Made by a program: the position numbers and the translations under genes
In this document: piece by piece, positions 4,113 to 54,826 of the stretch
How the letters are laid out: each line of letters begins with the position of its first letter
Numbering within the stretch: the first letter of the stretch is position 1
The notes under the pieces: generated by a model
What the model was told of the DNA's origin: nothing
Seen by the model: only the letters and a program-made list of their open reading frames with translations
Databases searched by the model: none
Source of the DNA: a virus
Strand: one strand, 5' to 3'
Virus record (IMG/VR): IMGVR_UViG_3300031576_000025
Coordinates: 1 to 64,000 of that record
Length of the DNA stretch: 64,000 bases

Positions 4113-4669
4113 CGCCGCCGGAAGGCGCGGTGCCGGGGGACGGCGCGCAGAAGCCGTCGGCTGCCGTGATTCGCCAGCGGCTTGACGAACACGACGCTGA
4201 CGCGCGTTCGTGGTTGGAAACCGTCACGCCGCGCGACGTTCGCCACCTCCTCGACGAACTGGACGCGCGCAACGCCAGTTGTCTAAAGCATGAAGGTCAC
4301 GAGCATTGCGTTACGCCGTGCGATTCCATCAGGATTCAGGAGGCGAATCACAACGCCTACCTGACCGCGAAGGACCGCGCCGACGACCTTGAATCCGAAC
4401 TCACCTTGGTCCGGGCGGCCCTTCAGACCGTCGTAGCCCGTTGGACAACACCGGGCGAGCCTGACTTTTCGGAGCTGGATTTGTCTATGGCAAAGGACGC
4501 CCTATCCAGACCCGCCCGCGCCACCAACGACAGGGCTGCGCTGGAAGCCGTGTTCCAGGCCGCGTGGAACCTGAACCATGGGAAGCACGACGGGCACGAC
4601 GGGAAGGCGGAAGTGGCGCTGGCCGAATCCGTCGCAAAGGTCAAGGCCATACGCGGTGGGAAACCGTGA
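4109..4669 (+). CDS. Helical hypothetical protein, 186 aa
   Basis: A 186-residue, mainly helical protein. Residues about 85-115 (KDRADDLESELTLVRAALQT) look like a short coiled coil. A CLKHEGHEHCVTPC stretch provides clustered Cys/His that could coordinate a metal. The C-terminus is charged. The start overlaps the previous gene by 4 bases. No family recognised. Confidence 0.6.
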   Translation: MTPPEGAVPGDGAQKPSAAVIRQRLDEHDADARSWLETVTPRDVRHLLDELDARNASCLKHEGHEHCVTPCDSIRIQEANHNAYLTAKDRADDLESELTLVRAALQTVVARWTTPGEPDFSELDLSMAKDALSRPARATNDRAALEAVFQAAWNLNHGKHDGHDGKAEVALAESVAKVKAIRGGKP

Positions 4670-4983
4670 CGAATCCGAAGGGGGCCGTTGGTGGCGCGCA
4701 GAAGGGGCTGTACGTTTCATGCGCCGCCTTGCACGTGGACGCGCGCGGGAATCGTGTCCAGTGCCCGGACGGCAAGCCCCCCAGGGAACCCGTGGTTCTG
4801 TTGTGCCCGAAGTGCGGCAACGACATGAAACCAGGAAGGACGCCGCCCTGCGACACATGCGACTGTCCGAAGCCGCAGCTTGCGCCGCAAATGTGCGGGC
4901 AATGCGGACAGGCGATTTCAGCGGCGGCCTGCGGCCCGACCCACGCCGCTGCGGCCCGCGGGGCGGGGCTGGACGCGCCGTGA
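4666..4983 (+). CDS. Zinc-ribbon protein
   Basis: A 105-residue protein with at least three CxxC pairs: CPKCG, CDTCDC and CGQCG. These make it a likely zinc-binding protein, perhaps with tandem ribbons. Start is GTG 4666 (GTGA overlap). Small phage zinc ribbons often bind host RNA polymerase or nucleic acid, but nothing here identifies a partner. Confidence 0.6.
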   Translation: MTNPKGAVGGAQKGLYVSCAALHVDARGNRVQCPDGKPPREPVVLLCPKCGNDMKPGRTPPCDTCDCPKPQLAPQMCGQCGQAISAAACGPTHAAAARGAGLDAP

Positions 4984-5222
4984 CGCCAGCGGAACAGGCG
5001 GTGTTGGTGCTGGTGGTGGCCGTCGTCGTTGACGGCTTGGTGGCCTGTGGCCGGGCGCGGGCGGCGCGGGCGGCGCTGGCGGCGCGGCGCGGACCATGGG
5101 GCAAGCTGCTGTGGCGGTGGGCCGGTGGCTGGCGGCGCGACGGCCCCGCCTTGGCCGCGCTGGCGCAGGTCTACCACGACCGGGCGCGGCAACAGGACCG
5201 GACGAACCGCGGGGACGGCTGA
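4980..5222 (+). CDS. Small membrane-anchored basic protein
   Basis: An 80-residue protein. Residues about 6-24 (QAVLVLVVAVVVDGLVACG) form a transmembrane helix, followed by an Arg/Ala/Trp-rich cytoplasmic tail. GTG 4980 overlaps the preceding stop by 4 bases. Function unknown. Confidence 0.5.
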   Translation: MTPAEQAVLVLVVAVVVDGLVACGRARAARAALAARRGPWGKLLWRWAGGWRRDGPALAALAQVYHDRARQQDRTNRGDG

Positions 5223-5224
5223 CG

Positions 5225-5506
5225 GTGACCCGCAGACCCAACGACTATGCGACTGGAAACGCCAGACCAAACGGCTGGCCCAGGGTGCAGAAGCGGGCGG
5301 TTGCCCCAGGCGCGTGCCCCCGGCGTACGCAGCCTGGACGGCCGACCGAACAAGAACACCGGCATGACGCCGGTAAGGGCATAGCCCAAAACAGCCTGAC
5401 CCGCCACCGGCCTGGTGACCGCGCGGAACGCGACCGCGCGCCGAACGGCCCGGACGGCGGGCAGGCCCAGGGCGCGCTTGGCGGCTGTCGCTGGTGGCTG
5501 CCGTAG
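5225..5506 (+). CDS. Basic, low-complexity hypothetical protein
   Basis: A possible 93-residue Arg/Pro/Gly-rich protein starting at GTG 5225, two bases after the previous stop. The composition is unusually basic and could reflect a shadow reading frame, but the start spacing and the coupled genes on both sides fit the local pattern. No family recognised. Confidence 0.35.
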   Translation: MTRRPNDYATGNARPNGWPRVQKRAVAPGACPRRTQPGRPTEQEHRHDAGKGIAQNSLTRHRPGDRAERDRAPNGPDGGQAQGALGGCRWWLP

Positions 5507-5685
5507 CAGCGGCGCGGCATTGCGGGCGCTACGGCCCCGCGGCGCGCGCCACAGCGCCCGCTGGCGCGCCTGCCGCGGCGGGGCAGCCGGACGCAGCCCA
5601 TGGCCGCCCCAGCGCCCCCAGGAAGGCCCGCCAGCGGCCCGCGGCGCGCCCGGCGGCCACCAAGCCCGGCACCGGCCGCCCGTGA
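5494..5685 (+). CDS. Ala/Pro/Arg-rich small hypothetical protein
   Basis: A 63-residue Ala-, Pro- and Arg-rich reading frame from GTG 5494. It ends in a TGA that overlaps the GTG of the next gene by 4 bases, the typical local coupling. Low complexity makes it weakly supported as a real protein. Confidence 0.35.
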   Translation: MAAVAAARHCGRYGPAARATAPAGAPAAAGQPDAAHGRPSAPRKARQRPAARPAATKPGTGRP

Positions 5686-5963
5686 CCGTCCTGCTGGTGT
5701 TCTGCCCAGCCTGCGGCACCGGGGAAGCCGTGGACGCCGACCGCCACCCGTCACCGGACCTGCAATGCGACGGCTGCGGCGGCGCGCGCGAAGCCTTCCT
5801 GCTGACCCAGCCATGCCCAGCGCAACAGCCCGGCCGCCCCAAAAGGAACGGCTGCGGGAAGCCCCAACAGCTGGCAGAAAACGACCAGGATTTGACCCCC
5901 AAAAAAGCCCCGGTTTCCAGCCCCCGCCGGACCAAGAAAAAGACCCGGCGGACGGGTCCGTGA
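5682..5963 (+). CDS. Zinc-ribbon protein
   Basis: A 93-residue protein starting GTG 5682. After a hydrophobic N-terminus (MTVLLVFC) it has CPAC and CDGC pairs about 25 residues apart, a classic zinc-ribbon spacing, then a basic Lys/Arg/Pro tail (SSPRRTKKKTRRTGP). The tail suggests nucleic-acid binding. It is the last gene of the left small-gene block; the A+T-richer repeat zone begins immediately after. Confidence 0.5.
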   Translation: MTVLLVFCPACGTGEAVDADRHPSPDLQCDGCGGAREAFLLTQPCPAQQPGRPKRNGCGKPQQLAENDQDLTPKKAPVSSPRRTKKKTRRTGP

Positions 5964-5974
5964 AACGACCAGCT

Positions 5975-6250
5975 ATGCTACAAGCATTGCTTAAGCATTG
6001 CTTAAGCATATGCTACAAGCATTGCTTAAGCATTGCTTCAAGCATAGATTTGGCCATGCTACAAGCATTTTAAGCATAGAAAAAAGGGGGGGTAAATGAC
6101 ACCGAAGGCTTGGCATGTAAATTGCCAGGAATTGCTTAAGCCTGCCACCGATGTAGGAAATTCCACACTCACGGAATGCTTCAAGCATTGCTTAAGCATT
6201 GCTTCAAGCATAAAACGGGGGGGCCATGCTACAAGCATTGCTTAAGCATG
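5975..6250 (+). repeat. Iteron-like array of AAGCATTGCTT
   Basis: Seven perfect copies of the near-palindrome AAGCATTGCTT begin at 5982, 5993, 6017, 6028, 6183, 6194 and 6233, with extra AAGCAT/ATGCT half-sites around them and a degenerate cluster at 6056-6077. Neighbouring AAGCA half-sites are 11-12 bases apart, one helical turn, so bound proteins would line up on one face. The array is A+T-richer than the rest of the phage. This is the architecture of replication iterons, partition centromeres or multi-site operators; which one cannot be told from sequence. Confidence 0.85.
6096..6245 (+). CDS. Possible 49-aa peptide within the repeat array
   Basis: An ORF starting ATG 6096, four bases after a strong GGGGGGG run. 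Its second half is the translation of the repeat array (KHCLSIASSI-like). The good ribosome binding site is the only support, and the coding content may be accidental because the repeats dominate the sequence. Confidence 0.25.
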   Translation: MTPKAWHVNCQELLKPATDVGNSTLTECFKHCLSIASSIKRGGHATSIA

Positions 6251-6432
6251 TTTTAGCATGAAAAACCGCAAAAGCCGGGCGACTATATAAAGACTCTGTA
6301 CGCCGTTAATGCCGGTTGTGCAAGCCGTTGAGAAAAAGAGAGAGATAAAAAAACGAACGGACTCTCTCGTCCCCTTCAAAAAACGACCCGAAATCCACCA
6401 CCCGAAACCCAACGGAACCACCCAAAAACCAC
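6251..6432. other. A+T-rich non-coding stretch with hairpin
   Basis: No convincing gene. It contains a TATATAA box (6284-6290) without a clear -35, and a strand-asymmetric segment where GAGAGAG (6338-6344) pairs with CTCTCTC (6362-6368). It lies between the iteron-like array and the next ORF, and could be a leader or origin-adjacent region. Confidence 0.5.
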
Positions 6433-6801
6433 ATGGACCTGCACCCACAAAATGACCACACGGAACTGCTGCCCAAACAGCCCCATTTCAACCCTTCCCT
6501 TTCGGCACTGGATTCCTGGTACGTCATGCTGCTAAACTACCCCCACGGCCGGACCAGGTCAACGAAAGCCGAACGCCGGAAAGACCGTTACGAAGTCTTG
6601 AACGAAGCCGGTCAAGGTGACCGTCAAGGCACTGTTCGACTTGGACCTGGAACAGTCCAGCTGCCGGAAGGTCCGAACGCTGGAATGTCGAAACGCCCGA
6701 ACACCGCAAAGCCTGAATGTCGGGAAGTCGGTGCGCTGGTCGGCTGGTGCTTTGGTGTTGACGTGGACTTGTCCGCAGTGGTAGACCGCAAAGGCAGGTG
6801 A
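6433..6801 (+). CDS. Uncertain ORF, possibly frameshifted
   Basis: A 122-residue reading frame from ATG 6433 with no ribosome binding site. The first 60 codons look coding (Trp/Tyr/Met-containing stretch SWYVMLLNYP, then basic residues). From about 6610 the coding character seems better in another frame (TVKALFDLDLEQSS), which ends at a TAG near 6784. This suggests either a decayed gene or an indel. No family recognised. Confidence 0.35.
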   Translation: MDLHPQNDHTELLPKQPHFNPSLSALDSWYVMLLNYPHGRTRSTKAERRKDRYEVLNEAGQGDRQGTVRLGPGTVQLPEGPNAGMSKRPNTAKPECREVGALVGWCFGVDVDLSAVVDRKGR

Positions 6802-6807
6802 ACGAAC

Positions 6808-7449
6808 ATGGGCCAGGCAGAAGGCAAGACGCAGAAGGTCGGCAGCAGGTACCCGCGTGAGCTGGTGCTGCGCGCTATCCAAGCGGTCAACGAAGGCGCG
6901 ACCCTGACGACGGTGGCCAAGGATTTCAAGGTGGCCCCGAACGTCGTCAAGTATTGGGTGGACAACGCCGACAGGTTCATGGGCCCGGCTGGCATGAAGG
7001 CCCTGACCTTCGGCACCGGCCTGGACGACCACACGCGCCAGCAGTTCCACCGCATAGGCTGGCAGTCCGTCTACCTTGCCCTGCGCGTGGCGCGCGTGAA
7101 GTTCAAGACGGCAACGCTGACCGAGATTTCAACCTTCATTGCCAACACCGTTGACCGCCTTGGCAAGCACGCCAGACCGACCGACGAAGAACGCCGCAGC
7201 GGCGACGGTGGCGAATCACCTATCAAGTCCGCGGCAAGCCGCGAAGCAGGGCGTGCCTTCAGCCAAGTGGAAGCCATGGTGGTGCGCATGACGCAGCAGC
7301 GGGAAGGGCCGGTGGAAGAACCCCAAGGTGAGCGCGAAGAGCCAATAGACGCTACCACACCGACGCCTGCGGAACCGGAACCAGCAGCGACGGACCCGGC
7401 CACCACGACGGACAACAAACACAACACCGACGAACCACCCTTGACCTAA
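6808..7449 (+). CDS. HTH DNA-binding protein (regulator or small terminase-like)
   Basis: A 213-residue protein. Residues about 14-50 (RELVLRAIQAVNEGATLTTV then AKDFKVAPNVVKYWV) form a helix-turn-helix of the transposase-OrfA type also used by some phage small terminase subunits. A middle helical region follows and the last 60 residues are an acidic Pro/Thr/Glu-rich tail. It sits between two repeat clusters (5975-6250 and 7552-7599), which are candidate binding sites. The large terminase is 5 kb downstream, so small terminase, replication/partition factor and regulator are all open. An aggtga sequence precedes the ATG. Confidence 0.65.
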   Translation: MGQAEGKTQKVGSRYPRELVLRAIQAVNEGATLTTVAKDFKVAPNVVKYWVDNADRFMGPAGMKALTFGTGLDDHTRQQFHRIGWQSVYLALRVARVKFKTATLTEISTFIANTVDRLGKHARPTDEERRSGDGGESPIKSAASREAGRAFSQVEAMVVRMTQQREGPVEEPQGEREEPIDATTPTPAEPEPAATDPATTTDNKHNTDEPPLT

Positions 7450-7512: not shown

Positions 7513-7596
7513 ATGAGGCGTCGGAGGCGCATACTCCTGCTGACCACAATTTTTTCATTTGCAAATCTGATATTTTCATTTGAAAATTTTATTTGA
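7513..7596 (+). CDS. Possible 27-aa hydrophobic membrane peptide
   Basis: ATG 7513 lies 8 bases after a perfect GGAGG (7500-7504). The product has a basic head (MRRRRR) and then a hydrophobic Leu/Ile/Phe-rich segment to the stop, the profile of small membrane peptides such as type I toxins or leader peptides. The A+T-rich repeats at 7552-7599 encode its C-terminal half. Real coding status is uncertain, but the ribosome binding site is among the best in this zone. Confidence 0.4.
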   Translation: MRRRRRILLLTTIFSFANLIFSFENFI

Positions 7597-7599
7597 AAA
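7552..7599. repeat. Three TTTTCATTTGAAAA-type palindromes
   Basis: Three adjacent copies: TTTTCATTTGCAAA (7552-7565), the perfect inverted repeat TTTTCA-TT-TGAAAA (7573-7586) and TTTTATTTGAAAA (7587-7599). This is the most A+T-rich stretch of the window. It could be a DNA-unwinding element or operator for the promoter at 7669. Confidence 0.7.
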
Positions 7600-7668
7600 A
7601 GCCGGTCCAGAAATCCTTTGCAAACAGTTGCAGCCGTCCATTCTTTCAACCCCCACCGTCTTAAAGCC

Positions 7669-11859: not shown

Positions 11860-12308
11860 CCACGCACCTGGTAGCCCTGGCGACTAAGCCGCTGCTGGTC
11901 GGTGAATTCAACCCCTACGGCACGGGCCCGGATTTCGCGCTGTACCCGGCACCGTCCGGGTGCGCGGGCTGGCGGCTGTGCTGCAAAATCTTGGACATCG
12001 CCCCGTCCGACTACCTTGCCCGCTTCGACCGCGCCAACCTATGCGTCGGGCGCTGGTCCATACGCGAAGCGCGCCTGGAAGCCGCGCGCCTGCTGACGAC
12101 CGGCACGGGCCCGGTGGTGGTGCTTGGGGCGAAGGTGTCCGCGGCGTTCGGCCTCGCGTTTGAACCCTACGCCAACACCACCCTGGGCGACCCGGTGCGC
12201 GCCGCCGTAATCCTGCCGCACCCGTCCGGCCTTTGCCGCCTTTGGTGGGAACCCGGCGCGTACGAACGCGCGCGGCGCGCGCTGAACATTGCCAGGGTGA
12301 ACCTGTGA
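11856..12308 (+). CDS. Uracil-DNA glycosylase superfamily-like protein
   Basis: A 150-residue protein. The N-terminal VGEFNPYG (residues about 15-22) resembles the family-4 UDG motif A, and the C-terminal LPHPSGLCRLW (about 119-129) resembles motif B with its His-Pro-Ser. A central VVVLGAKVSAAFG matches the strand-loop that follows in this fold. Similar proteins occur in many phages and are only loosely related to active UDGs, so base excision is inferred, not shown. ATGA overlap upstream and GTGA overlap with the large terminase gene place it at the head of the packaging operon. Confidence 0.7.
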   Translation: MTTHLVALATKPLLVGEFNPYGTGPDFALYPAPSGCAGWRLCCKILDIAPSDYLARFDRANLCVGRWSIREARLEAARLLTTGTGPVVVLGAKVSAAFGLAFEPYANTTLGDPVRAAVILPHPSGLCRLWWEPGAYERARRALNIARVNL

Positions 12309-13789
12309 CCAACGCCACCACCAGCAAGGACCGGCCGCACGCGGCGCGGCTTGCCGCGGCGTACTACCTGGGCAAGCACACGCTGGGGTACGACCGCTTC
12401 ACGGAACTTCACGCGGGCTGGCTGGACCTTCTGCTGCGCCATAAAAAAATCGTGCTGGTAGCGCCGCCCGGCCATTACAAATCCACGGTGGCGACAATCA
12501 CCTATCCGCTGTTCAGGTTGACGGAGGACAGGAACCTGCGGATTATGATTATCAACGAAGTCCTCGAAAACGCCAAGGCGTTCCTTTCGGAAATCAAGGG
12601 GCACCTGCGGGACAATGAAGAATTCCGTGCGGCGCACGGGACCTGGCACATGGACGCGGACGCCTGGACCGCGGACAAGATTCAGCTGCGCCGCGACGTA
12701 ATCCGAAAGGAACCGACGGTGGCCGCGGTCGGCGTGCTGGGCACGCTGGTGTCCCAGCACCCCAACCTGATAATCGTTGACGACCCGTGCAGTGGGCGCA
12801 ACACGCAGACCCACAGCCAGCGGGAAAAAGTCTGGCAATGGTGGCGGCGCGACCTAATGCCCCGCCTTGACGCCAACGACCCTGAAGCGCAAATAATCGT
12901 CGTGTCCACCCGCTGGCACCGCGACGATTTGGTGGGCCGGATAAAAGCCGACGAAGGGTACAAGGATTGGAAGATTGTTGAACTGGCCGCCGAATGGAAG
13001 GACAAGGCTGGAAAGCAGCAAATCCTTTTCCCCGAAAAATTCACGCCCAAGACGCTGACCGACCTGCGCGGGACGTTGGGCACGGCGAACTACCATTGCA
13101 TTTACGGCAGCAGCCCGGAATCGGTTTCCGGCACAGACTTCAAGCCCGCGTGGCTGGAACAGGGCCGGTATGATAAACTTCCCCCGGACTTGACCGTGTT
13201 TGCTGGCGTTGACTTGGCCATCGGCAAGACGCAGCGAAACGCGGCCTTCGCCTGGTGCGTGCTGGGCGTGGACATGAAGCGCGGGGACGGGTACGTGATA
13301 GAAGCGTACCGGGACAGGCTGCCGTTTGCGGAACAGCTGAAGGCGGTCAAGCGGCTGAACCGGCTGCACCACCCGCGGTGTATTATAATCGAGTCCAACG
13401 CCTATCAGGCGGTGTTCACGGAGGTTTTACGGACGGACAAGGAATCGCGGCTGCTGCCGTTCAAGCCGTACAACACGGTGGGCGACAAGCACGCCCGGCT
13501 GCGCGGGCTGGCACCGCTGTATGAAGCGGGCGCGCTGCGGCACCCGCGGACGAACGCCGATTGGCTGGACAACCTCGAGCAGGAAATGTTGGGGTTCCCT
13601 GACGGGACGCTGGACATGATGGACGCGGAATGGCTGGCGTTGCAGGGCGTGGAATTGCAGCGCAACGAACCGCGCATAGGCCATGCCGACGACACCGACG
13701 ACATGGACAAAGACGACGACGGGGAAGGCGCAGGGCGCGGGCAGGCCGACAGGCACACGGCCGGGCACGGCGCTGGTGCGGGGGTATAA
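12305..13789 (+). CDS. terL: Terminase large subunit
   Basis: A 494-residue DNA packaging motor and nuclease. The Walker A variant APPGHYKST lies at residues about 52-60, Walker B LIIVDDP at about 155-161 followed by the coupling segment, and the RNase H-like nuclease domain begins at AGVDLAIG (about 300-307), whose Asp is the usual first metal ligand. IVVSTRWHRDDLVGRI between them is typical of this TerL family. It acts on concatemeric phage DNA at the portal. GTG 12305 gives normal length. The acidic, Gly-rich last 40 residues are unusual and may be a flexible tail. The portal gene follows directly. Confidence 0.95.
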   Translation: MTNATTSKDRPHAARLAAAYYLGKHTLGYDRFTELHAGWLDLLLRHKKIVLVAPPGHYKSTVATITYPLFRLTEDRNLRIMIINEVLENAKAFLSEIKGHLRDNEEFRAAHGTWHMDADAWTADKIQLRRDVIRKEPTVAAVGVLGTLVSQHPNLIIVDDPCSGRNTQTHSQREKVWQWWRRDLMPRLDANDPEAQIIVVSTRWHRDDLVGRIKADEGYKDWKIVELAAEWKDKAGKQQILFPEKFTPKTLTDLRGTLGTANYHCIYGSSPESVSGTDFKPAWLEQGRYDKLPPDLTVFAGVDLAIGKTQRNAAFAWCVLGVDMKRGDGYVIEAYRDRLPFAEQLKAVKRLNRLHHPRCIIIESNAYQAVFTEVLRTDKESRLLPFKPYNTVGDKHARLRGLAPLYEAGALRHPRTNADWLDNLEQEMLGFPDGTLDMMDAEWLALQGVELQRNEPRIGHADDTDDMDKDDDGEGAGRGQADRHTAGHGAGAGV

Positions 13790-44702: not shown

Positions 44703-45581
44703 CTAGGCCCGGAAGCCCGGGTGCGCAGCGGCGCAGGCCGCCGCCAGGTGGGTGACGGAAACCCTGGTGTAACGCTGGGTGGTGGTGATGCTGGCGTGGC
44801 CCAGGTAGCCCTGAATCGTCCGAATGTCGGCCCCGCCTTCCAGCATGTGGGTGGCGGCGCTGTGGCGCAGCTGGTGCGGGTGGACCGGCGCGGACAGCCC
44901 GGCGCGCTGCGCAAGCTGGCGCAGCACCCACCACACCGCCGCCCGGTCCAGGGGCTTGCCCCTGGGCGACAGCATGAGGGCTTCGGCGGCCGGGTAGCGC
45001 GCGGCCCGCGCGGCCATGTAGGCCCGCAGGGCGGCCACGGCACGCGGCCCGACCGGCAGCAGGCGTTCCTTCCCACCCTTCCCCTTGACCAGCACCGTGC
45101 TGTGGTCCAGGTCCACGTTCACCACCAGCAGGCCGCAAAGTTCTGACGCCCGCAGCCCGGCCACGTAAAGGACCAGCAGCAGGGCCTTGTTCCGCAGTTC
45201 AATGAAGCGGGTCCCAAAGGACTGGCCCAGCAGGCGGTCCATGTCCGACTGGTCCAGGGACTTGGGCAGGGGCAGCTTCGGCTGCTGCACGGACAAGCCC
45301 ACCGTTGGGTCAACAGCGGCCAGGCCGCGGGCCAGCAGCCAGCGGTGGTACCCGGTGGCCACGGCGACGTCCAGGGCGACCGTGGCCGGGGCCTTCCCAG
45401 CCGCCTGGCGCACGGTCAGGTAGCCCACCACGTCCGAGTGGGCGGCCGTTTCGGCGGCCTTCCCATGGGCCGCCAGGTGGGCCTGGTAGGCCGTCAGCGC
45501 CCTGCTGTAGGTGTCCAGGGTGGCCGGGGAACGCCCGCCCGCCTTCAGGTCCGCCAGGTACGCCGCCAGGTGCCCGTTCAT
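44703..45581 (-). CDS. int: Tyrosine integrase (XerC/D-like)
   Basis: A 292-residue site-specific recombinase. The N-terminal SAM-like core-binding domain (residues 1-85) precedes the catalytic domain, which has all active residues: R in VAGLRASEL, K in VKGKGGKERLLPV, HxLR in HPHQLRHSAAT, H in YLGHASI and nucleophile Y in TTQRYTRV. It is expected to integrate and excise phage DNA at attP/attB. The compact size with no extra arm-binding domain resembles Xer-type enzymes. ATG 45581 has gggggg upstream and overlaps the preceding gene's stop by 4 bases. It ends a leftward three-gene operon under an operator-bearing promoter. Confidence 0.93.
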   Translation of the reverse strand: MNGHLAAYLADLKAGGRSPATLDTYSRALTAYQAHLAAHGKAAETAAHSDVVGYLTVRQAAGKAPATVALDVAVATGYHRWLLARGLAAVDPTVGLSVQQPKLPLPKSLDQSDMDRLLGQSFGTRFIELRNKALLLVLYVAGLRASELCGLLVVNVDLDHSTVLVKGKGGKERLLPVGPRAVAALRAYMAARAARYPAAEALMLSPRGKPLDRAAVWWVLRQLAQRAGLSAPVHPHQLRHSAATHMLEGGADIRTIQGYLGHASITTTQRYTRVSVTHLAAACAAAHPGFRA

Positions 45582-53346: not shown

Positions 53347-53373
53347 GCCTTGGACGCAGCAACGGAGGAGTTC

Positions 53374-54105
53374 ATGTGGCAAGACAGAATAACCGTGGAA
53401 GTCGGGTACCCACGCCACCCCAAAACAATCACCCTGATTCAACGTCTTGGAAACGGTGCCGACGCCATACCCGTCCGGCTTTGGTGCTGGGCGGCCGAGT
53501 TCAAACCACAGCATGGAAAGCTGGGGAACCTGGACATGGACCCCAGCGAGGTGGAATCGCTGGTGGATTGGTGGGGGGAACCGGGGGCGTGCTTCAACGC
53601 CATGCTGGGGCTGTTCATTGACCGCAACGAGGACGGCTTCTACCTGCACGACTGGGGCGGACATCGGGGCCACGTCACGACCTACCACGAGCGCGCGAAG
53701 GTGGCGGCCAATACGCGCTGGGCGCGCCACAAAGCCATGAAGGCAGCCAAAGAAGAACGCGCCGCGGCCGGGCGCAAGGCTTCGCAGCCAGCGATAGACC
53801 TAGTGGACCGCCTGGTTGGGCTCATGCTGAAGAACGACCCCAATGCGCGCGTGCCTGGCAAACCGGCGGCATGGCAGCAGGATGCCGAAAAGCTGCTGAC
53901 GACGGACGGCCGCGGCGCGAAGGAAGCAACCGCGGTTCTGGAATGGTGCCAGCGGTCAACCTTCTGGCGCAGCAATATCCTCAGCATGGGCAAGTTCCGC
54001 GCCAAGTATTCGCAGCTATTGCTGCGGATGCAGGACGAGGGGAAGGAATCGGTAAATGGTCCCGTTGGGTCAGCAGCCCCGGTGGCGGGCAAGTATGCCA
54101 AGTGA
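53374..54105 (+). CDS. Replication initiation protein (helicase-loader partner)
   Basis: A 243-residue protein from ATG 53374 with ggaggag upstream. The N-terminal domain (HPKTITLIQRLGNGADAIPV, LDMDPSEVESLVDW, FYLHDWGGHRGHV) resembles phage replisome organisers. The C-terminal part (ATAVLEWCQRSTFWRSNILS followed by FRAKYSQLLLRM) matches DnaD/replication-initiator tails that bind the helicase loader. Directly followed by the DnaC-like gene, as in many phages. Origin DNA would be its target; none is identified nearby. Confidence 0.75.
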   Translation: MWQDRITVEVGYPRHPKTITLIQRLGNGADAIPVRLWCWAAEFKPQHGKLGNLDMDPSEVESLVDWWGEPGACFNAMLGLFIDRNEDGFYLHDWGGHRGHVTTYHERAKVAANTRWARHKAMKAAKEERAAAGRKASQPAIDLVDRLVGLMLKNDPNARVPGKPAAWQQDAEKLLTTDGRGAKEATAVLEWCQRSTFWRSNILSMGKFRAKYSQLLLRMQDEGKESVNGPVGSAAPVAGKYAK

Positions 54106-54826
54106 AACCGGGGACCTGAAGGCCGCTGGGGACTGCCTCCCGGAAGATGCGCTGACGGCGCAGCCGGACGCGGTGGCGGTGGAATGCGGAGCGTGCGGCT
54201 ACCCGTTGCGGGTCGGCGTGTGCGAAAAGTGCGCCGAAGATAAGGACAAGGAACTGGCCGCGCAGCGGCAGCACATGGCCGACCTTGGCGGGCAACGTCC
54301 GTACAATTCCTTCACGCTGGACAAGTACCTGGTGACGGCGACGAACCGCGCGGTGGTTGACGCGCTGCGCGCCTTCGACCCGGCCAAGGACAACTTCTAC
54401 CTGCTTGGCCCGACCGGCACAGGGAAGTCCCACCTGGCCGTTGCCGTCGCCCGCCTGTTCTGGCCAAAGCTGCGCCCGCTGGTGCGCAAGCCCACCGAAG
54501 TGACCCGCGAAGCGCGGCCGAACGGGCGGCCGGGGACCAGCACCGAAGCCGACACGATAGGCAAGTATGCGCGCTGCCGCGTGCTGGTGCTGGACGACCT
54601 GGGCGTGGAACGGGACAGCCAATTCACCCACCAGGTCTTTTACGAAATCATCGAGGGCCGCTGCCTTGCCGAACGAAACGGCCTAATCCTGACCAGCAAC
54701 CTGGGCCTAAACGACCTGGCCAAGAAGCTGGGCGACGACCGCATAACGTCCCGATTGAACGGGCTGTGCAAGCTGCTGGACCTGACCGGGGAACCGGACA
54801 GGCGCGCGGCGTGGCAGGCGACGTGA
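54095..54826 (+). CDS. DnaC-like AAA+ helicase loader
   Basis: A 243-residue protein. A zinc-ribbon segment (CGACGYPLRVGVCEKC, about 31-46) is followed by an AAA+ domain with Walker A GPTGTGKS (about 105-112), Walker B VLVLDDLG (about 163-170), sensor-1 LTSNLG and the arginine-finger region DRITSRLNGL. It loads replicative helicase onto the phage origin. A PEDALTAQPDAV stretch at the N-terminus (about 14-26) is shared with the methyltransferase at 56187. ATG 54095 overlaps the preceding gene by 11 bases. Confidence 0.88.
   Translation: MPSETGDLKAAGDCLPEDALTAQPDAVAVECGACGYPLRVGVCEKCAEDKDKELAAQRQHMADLGGQRPYNSFTLDKYLVTATNRAVVDALRAFDPAKDNFYLLGPTGTGKSHLAVAVARLFWPKLRPLVRKPTEVTREARPNGRPGTSTEADTIGKYARCRVLVLDDLGVERDSQFTHQVFYEIIEGRCLAERNGLILTSNLGLNDLAKKLGDDRITSRLNGLCKLLDLTGEPDRRAAWQAT

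Follow-up and report, generated by a model that had tools for sequence, protein, structure and literature searches.

The repeat array at the start of the packaging/late region of an uncultured temperate tailed phage is probably an iteron replication origin, predicted from sequence to be bound by the initiator encoded at 53350-54105 and unlinked from the gene for that initiator. We consider the replication origin to be the most likely identity of the array because unrelated phages keep the same repeat inside the gene for their replication starter. The virus record comprises 82,218 bases and is classed as linear. Bases 1-64000 of the record, referred to here as the window, are the 64,000-base stretch that was analyzed (Table 1).

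Table 1. Features of the window relevant to the array
Feature	Position	Strand	Remarks
Iteron group 1	5975..6078	+	4 exact AAGCATTGCTT; half-sites 6004, 6040, 6063, 6072; ATGCTACAAGCAT inverted units 5975, 6010, 6056
Lone degenerate site between groups	6130..6141	+	AATTGCTTAAGCC-like; TTGCTTAAGC at 6132
Iteron group 2	6176..6262	+	3 exact AAGCATTGCTT (6183, 6194, 6233); half-sites 6206, 6244; degenerate GTTTTAGCATG end
AT-richer stretch	6237..6360	.	Directly after group 2; ~0.57-0.6 AT in 0.337 AT genome
A/C-rich, G+T-poor tract	6362..6485	+	Lowest G+T 60-nt and 100-nt windows of whole 82,218-base record
213-aa protein	6808..7449	+	Nearest gene to array; weak HTH match
Terminase large subunit (TerL)	12305..13789	+	Array lies upstream of packaging/head genes
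Portal	13791		
Integrase	44703-45581	-	
O-like/DnaD-like replication initiator	53350..54105	+	Start codon uncertain; N-terminal HPKT domain, C-terminal O-like/DnaD-like match
IstB/DnaC-like ATPase	54095..54826	+	Predicted helicase loader; adjoins initiator

Layout of the array

The original prediction described seven perfect 11-base near-palindromes and additional half-sites, phased at 11 to 12 bases in two groups about 105 bases apart within a poorly coding zone. There are indeed seven exact copies of AAGCATTGCTT (starts at 5982, 5993, 6017, 6028, 6183, 6194, and 6233). They are accompanied across 5975-6262 by AAGCAT half-sites, which start at 5982, 5993, 6004, 6017, 6028, 6040, 6063, and 6072 in group 1 and at 6183, 6194, 6206, 6233, and 6244 in group 2. 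The successive spacings of these half-sites are 11, 11, 13, 11, 12, 23, and 9 in group 1 and 11, 12, 27, and 11 in group 2; the predicted phasing holds, as 11 to 13 bp, within runs and is interrupted by some larger steps (23 and 27) and one of 9. The groups lie approximately 98 bases apart (6078 to 6176), near the distance claimed. The array falls in a gap, 4669 to 6808, where a simple codon-model gene caller found no gene. An Rfam search returned no match.

When up to one mismatch was allowed on both strands, 14 AAGCATTGCTT-like sites were found in the window, compared with 0.60 expected by chance, and none of 100 shuffled window sequences reached this number. The exact 11-mer is absent from the rest of the 82,218-base record, which contains no second GCAWTGC array. 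The AT content of the array region is approximately 0.6 to 0.65, versus a genome mean of 0.337. Direct repeats that are in phase and share a core are characteristic of phage iteron origins, and the array has them.

The repeat recurs inside phage replication initiator genes

We scanned IMG/VR for two copies of the motif at 12-bp spacing and recovered eight viruses with GC contents of 0.34 to 0.66. The same pattern occurred in three stretches in 257 billion bases of bacterial and archaeal genomes; a search of E. coli genomes did not recover the motif, and plasmids yielded only weak, scattered matches. In most of the viruses from the scan, the array is part of a replication gene, where it occupies the linker that directly follows a helix ending in "RW," and such linker arrays translate as SNASSNA or SNAPSNAP. 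More broadly, the motif (core GCAWTGC, 11- to 12-bp period) is present inside the replication initiator genes of many phages, where it closely follows the DNA-binding domain; at least three initiator families are represented (O-like "HPKT," DUF1376, and Lin1244_N). The array in the window has the same core at an 11- to 13-bp period. Among annotated, cultured phages, Plectonema phage Lbo240-yong2 has the sites in a "replication protein" gene directly before its DnaB helicase gene. The recurrence of the motif and its period in initiator genes supports the suggestion, made from the sequence alone, that the repeats are the iterons of a replication origin, to which protein binds cooperatively. We found no account in the open-access literature of this motif, or of DUF1376, in connection with iterons.

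A low-GC family of replication proteins (L029, L040, L071, and L073) encodes an SNAxSNA peptide but does so with a different DNA repeat, AGTAACGC.

A candidate initiator is encoded 47 kb from the array

The array has the iteron motif of phage initiator genes, and the one initiator of that class in the record has no iterons in its gene or linker. This gene, 53350-54105, and the adjoining loader gene supply the combination that is typical of phages with iteron origins, in which one genome encodes both an O/DnaD-like initiator and a helicase loader. The N-terminal domain of the initiator is 39% identical (E value, 7e-32) to that of L048, whose family carries the motif. The initiator is also homologous to those of L005 (33% identity) and L075 (tblastn, 9e-28). 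Its helix, RAKVAANTRW, has an alanine seven residues before RW, as in most GCAWTGC carriers. A PHROG for "replication initiation protein" was matched by 28 of the 29 aligned members of its family; a search of the protein itself against PHROG 9474, run without a positive control, gave no match, whereas its relatives do match. A tree of DNA-binding domains did not group the protein with GCAWTGC carriers in any clade of strong support. The domain was modeled with a pLDDT above 90 over approximately residues 11 to 130. Neither Foldseek nor VIA-align identified a solved relative that was convincing: 4pt7 and 5kbj (initiator and Rep-DNA), which ranked highest in VIA, had a Z score of 4.7, within the stated noise range of the tool. 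When 40 family members were searched against the record by tblastn, 53350-54105 was the sole match; no remnant of another initiator gene is thus recognizable in the array region.

The separation of approximately 47 kb between the array and the initiator gene counts against the origin interpretation, as the array is within the gene in the relatives examined. GC skew, suggested earlier as a check, gave a profile with no clean origin signal. The contig may contain assembly errors or be incomplete; no near DNA match to this phage was found among phages, and a search with TerL for close relatives produced distant matches only.

An HTH protein encoded next to the array had been proposed as its binding partner. 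The open reading frame at 6808-7449 is real and is the nearest gene, but the HTH assignment is weak (Pfam HTH_Tnp_1, E = 0.0024, short of the curated cutoff), and the protein model is poor (pLDDT, 55). Searches with the 6808 protein yielded no relative in IMG/VR or the phage collection, and we found no link between it and the motif. The 53350 initiator is the better candidate because its homologs have these iterons in their own genes, making the 6808 protein the less likely partner.

Protein-first tests of the association

We also examined the association starting from the proteins. For the HPKT family, 33 IMG/VR loci were gathered by similarity to the N-terminal domain of 53350-54105 and not by motif. 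GCAWTGC pairs spaced 11 to 13 bp apart numbered 23 in 7,260 nt of linker versus 0 in 503,829 nt elsewhere, and linker sites were present in 13 of the 33 loci. Different repeats, such as GGCATGCC or GAACGGATTGC, occupy the same place in the remaining loci. Across 18 whole records, the spaced pairs formed a single cluster in each positive record. The DUF1376 set, likewise assembled protein-first (80 loci, 68 unique), had 51 pairs in 16.3 kb of linker and 16 outside it; each of these 16 fell within the same gene, between +178 and +187. DUF1376 genes have two groups of sites approximately 170 apart, which is comparable to the distance of 201 between the two groups in the window.

Two or more sites accompanied alanine at the position seven residues before RW in 29 of 32 cases and glycine in 7 of 29, a comparison confounded by kinship. 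A test on independent pairs had no power because the residue changed only 3 times on the tree, and the association of helix and iteron was initially read by eye, in a smaller HPKT set, after the data had been seen. The link between helix and iteron is partly due to kinship. A profile comparison of the HPKT and DUF1376 domains aligned a short helix region alone (probability, 50), so homology of the whole domains is unsupported.

Tentatively, GCAWTGC iterons may form a widely shared recognition class of phage origins, in which several initiator families have a common basic helix, A-x-x-A-A-x-x-R-W, before the linker. If the helix predicts the iteron, then origins would be predictable from the initiator sequence and could leave the gene. 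An initiator helix tied to the origin motif across phage families would allow the origins of uncultured phages to be predicted from sequence, and an origin that has apparently gone from its initiator gene would be a useful case for understanding why most such phages keep the two together.

Among the HPKT loci, L078-L082, L089, L090, L093, L098, L099, L101, and L105 have the linker repeats GGCATGCC/GGTATACC, CGGAATTCTTCCGG, and GAACGGATTGC, and their prelinker helix varies in step.

Flanking tracts and a proposed mechanism

An origin is expected to have an adjacent tract of low stability or strand asymmetry, and the array is followed by such DNA. We infer that the AT-richer stretch after group 2 is a candidate unwinding region. 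In the tract beyond it, the lowest-G+T windows of the record start at 6372 (60 nt) and 6386 (100 nt), with G+T minima of 0.133 and 0.19, respectively; the best values in 20 first-order Markov runs were 0.167 and 0.25. A G+T-poor or G-poor stretch is also present 3' of the iterons in most of 12 relatives and is weak or absent in L076, L084, and L100. With respect to the A/C tract, the central A/T is oriented the other way round from that in most relatives, which counts against the origin interpretation.

We propose that the N-terminal domain of the 53350-54105 protein and the basic helix that follows it would bind the GCAWTGC cores, coating both groups. The neighboring AT-rich and A/C-rich stretch, 6237-6485, might then open or stay single stranded, and the initiator and the IstB/DnaC-like loader could load a DnaB-type helicase at the array. 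The origin would have become separated from the initiator gene in this phage and would now be at the start of the packaging/late region.

The in-gene iterons of L077, L079-L083, L087, L099, and L103 are often followed by G-free microrepeats (e.g., CCAACCAACC, CCTTCTCCTTCTCC, or CTAACCTACC) on the coding strand. In the window, the AT content of the record peaks at positions 7531-7600, just after gene 6808 (0.80 AT in 60 nt), where there is also a 13-bp repeat, ATTTTCATTTGAAA; this stretch is possibly a second unwinding or operator element.

Packaging as an alternative role

The position of the array upstream of the TerL/portal region, with an HTH protein encoded in between, would also suit a packaging site (pac/cos type) bound by a small terminase subunit to start packaging. 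The 6808 protein is possibly that subunit, yet it has no TerS match, no TerS was found upstream of TerL, and TerL itself is 4.9 kb downstream of the 6808 protein. Moreover, other viruses have the motif inside replication genes and not by terminases. An unrelated phage, L215, has a second intergenic array (GGCATTGCTTAAGCATTGCTT...) at 12438-12530, near a contig end and approximately 1 kb from a TerS-TerL-portal set. Because this array is also near terminase genes, we retain a packaging role as an alternative, albeit an unlikely one.

Comparison with known origins

The predicted origin can be compared with three kinds of phage origin. Lambdoid origins have iterons bound by an O-type initiator and an AT-rich flanking tract (PMC7466680), and the phage in the window likewise has an O-like initiator and a loader gene. 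The lambda origin occupies the middle of gene O, whereas the array here is remote from the initiator gene; the iteron also differs, and the flanking tract is A/C-rich as well as AT-rich. The in-gene GCAWTGC arrays of the DUF1376, Lin1244_N, and HPKT families share the core and period, and HPKT is the same initiator family, but their arrays fall within the initiator gene or right at its end.

In Bacillus phage SPP1, oriR occupies an intergenic stretch of late-region DNA, approximately 13 kb from oriL in initiator gene 38, and the origins consist of initiator-bound direct repeats and an AT-rich region (PMC6316719). SPP1 is thus a precedent for an intergenic late-region origin bound by an initiator encoded elsewhere, a layout comparable to that of the array, which is intergenic and unlinked from its predicted initiator gene. 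The SPP1 initiator gene contains repeats, whereas gene 53350 has none of the array repeats. The likeness is one of layout.

Stalling of forks at gp38-bound oriR has been proposed as the trigger for concatemer replication in SPP1 (PMC6316719). Given its similar intergenic late-region position, the array could, instead of being the main origin, bind the initiator for regulation or fork control of this kind. We think this quite unlikely, as the flanking tract expected of an origin is present beside the array. In addition, the lack of a second GCAWTGC array in the record indicates that the phage does not have another origin of this class within a gene.

Possible regulatory, partition, and peptide roles

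Phased near-palindromes adjoining an HTH gene could also be a partition centromere, a role raised in the original prediction, or an array of operators for a regulator of transcription, the 6808 protein being one candidate. Both roles are very unlikely, since the motif recurs in replication genes of other phages and no 6808 homolog accompanies it elsewhere. A partition site is further unsupported by searches for ParB (PF02195) and ParA-type (PF13614) proteins, which found no match in the 82-kb record with positive controls; the result covers these two families only, in a record that may be incomplete.

Some copies provide in-frame ATG codons, as had been noted, and these come from ATGCTACAAGCAT at 5975, 6010, 6056, and 6226. 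With G-rich sequence upstream of the ATG-led frames, the repeats might encode tiny functional peptides (e.g., MLQALLKH...). We rejected this reading as exceedingly improbable because the reading frame through this DNA varies in other viruses, or the DNA comes shortly after a stop codon: in L009, L010, L011, L012, and Mycobacterium phage Piper2020, the upstream or initiator frame ends at or just before the array (some frames were read by eye). The persistence of arrays past stop codons indicates that the conserved element is DNA and not peptide, in line with the earlier preference for DNA sites.

Copies of the motif also occur in two actinobacteriophages, Piper2020 (L109) and Sonali (L110), where they are located after gp88 and between gp50 and gp49 and adjoin microrepeats of the TACG or CTGT type.
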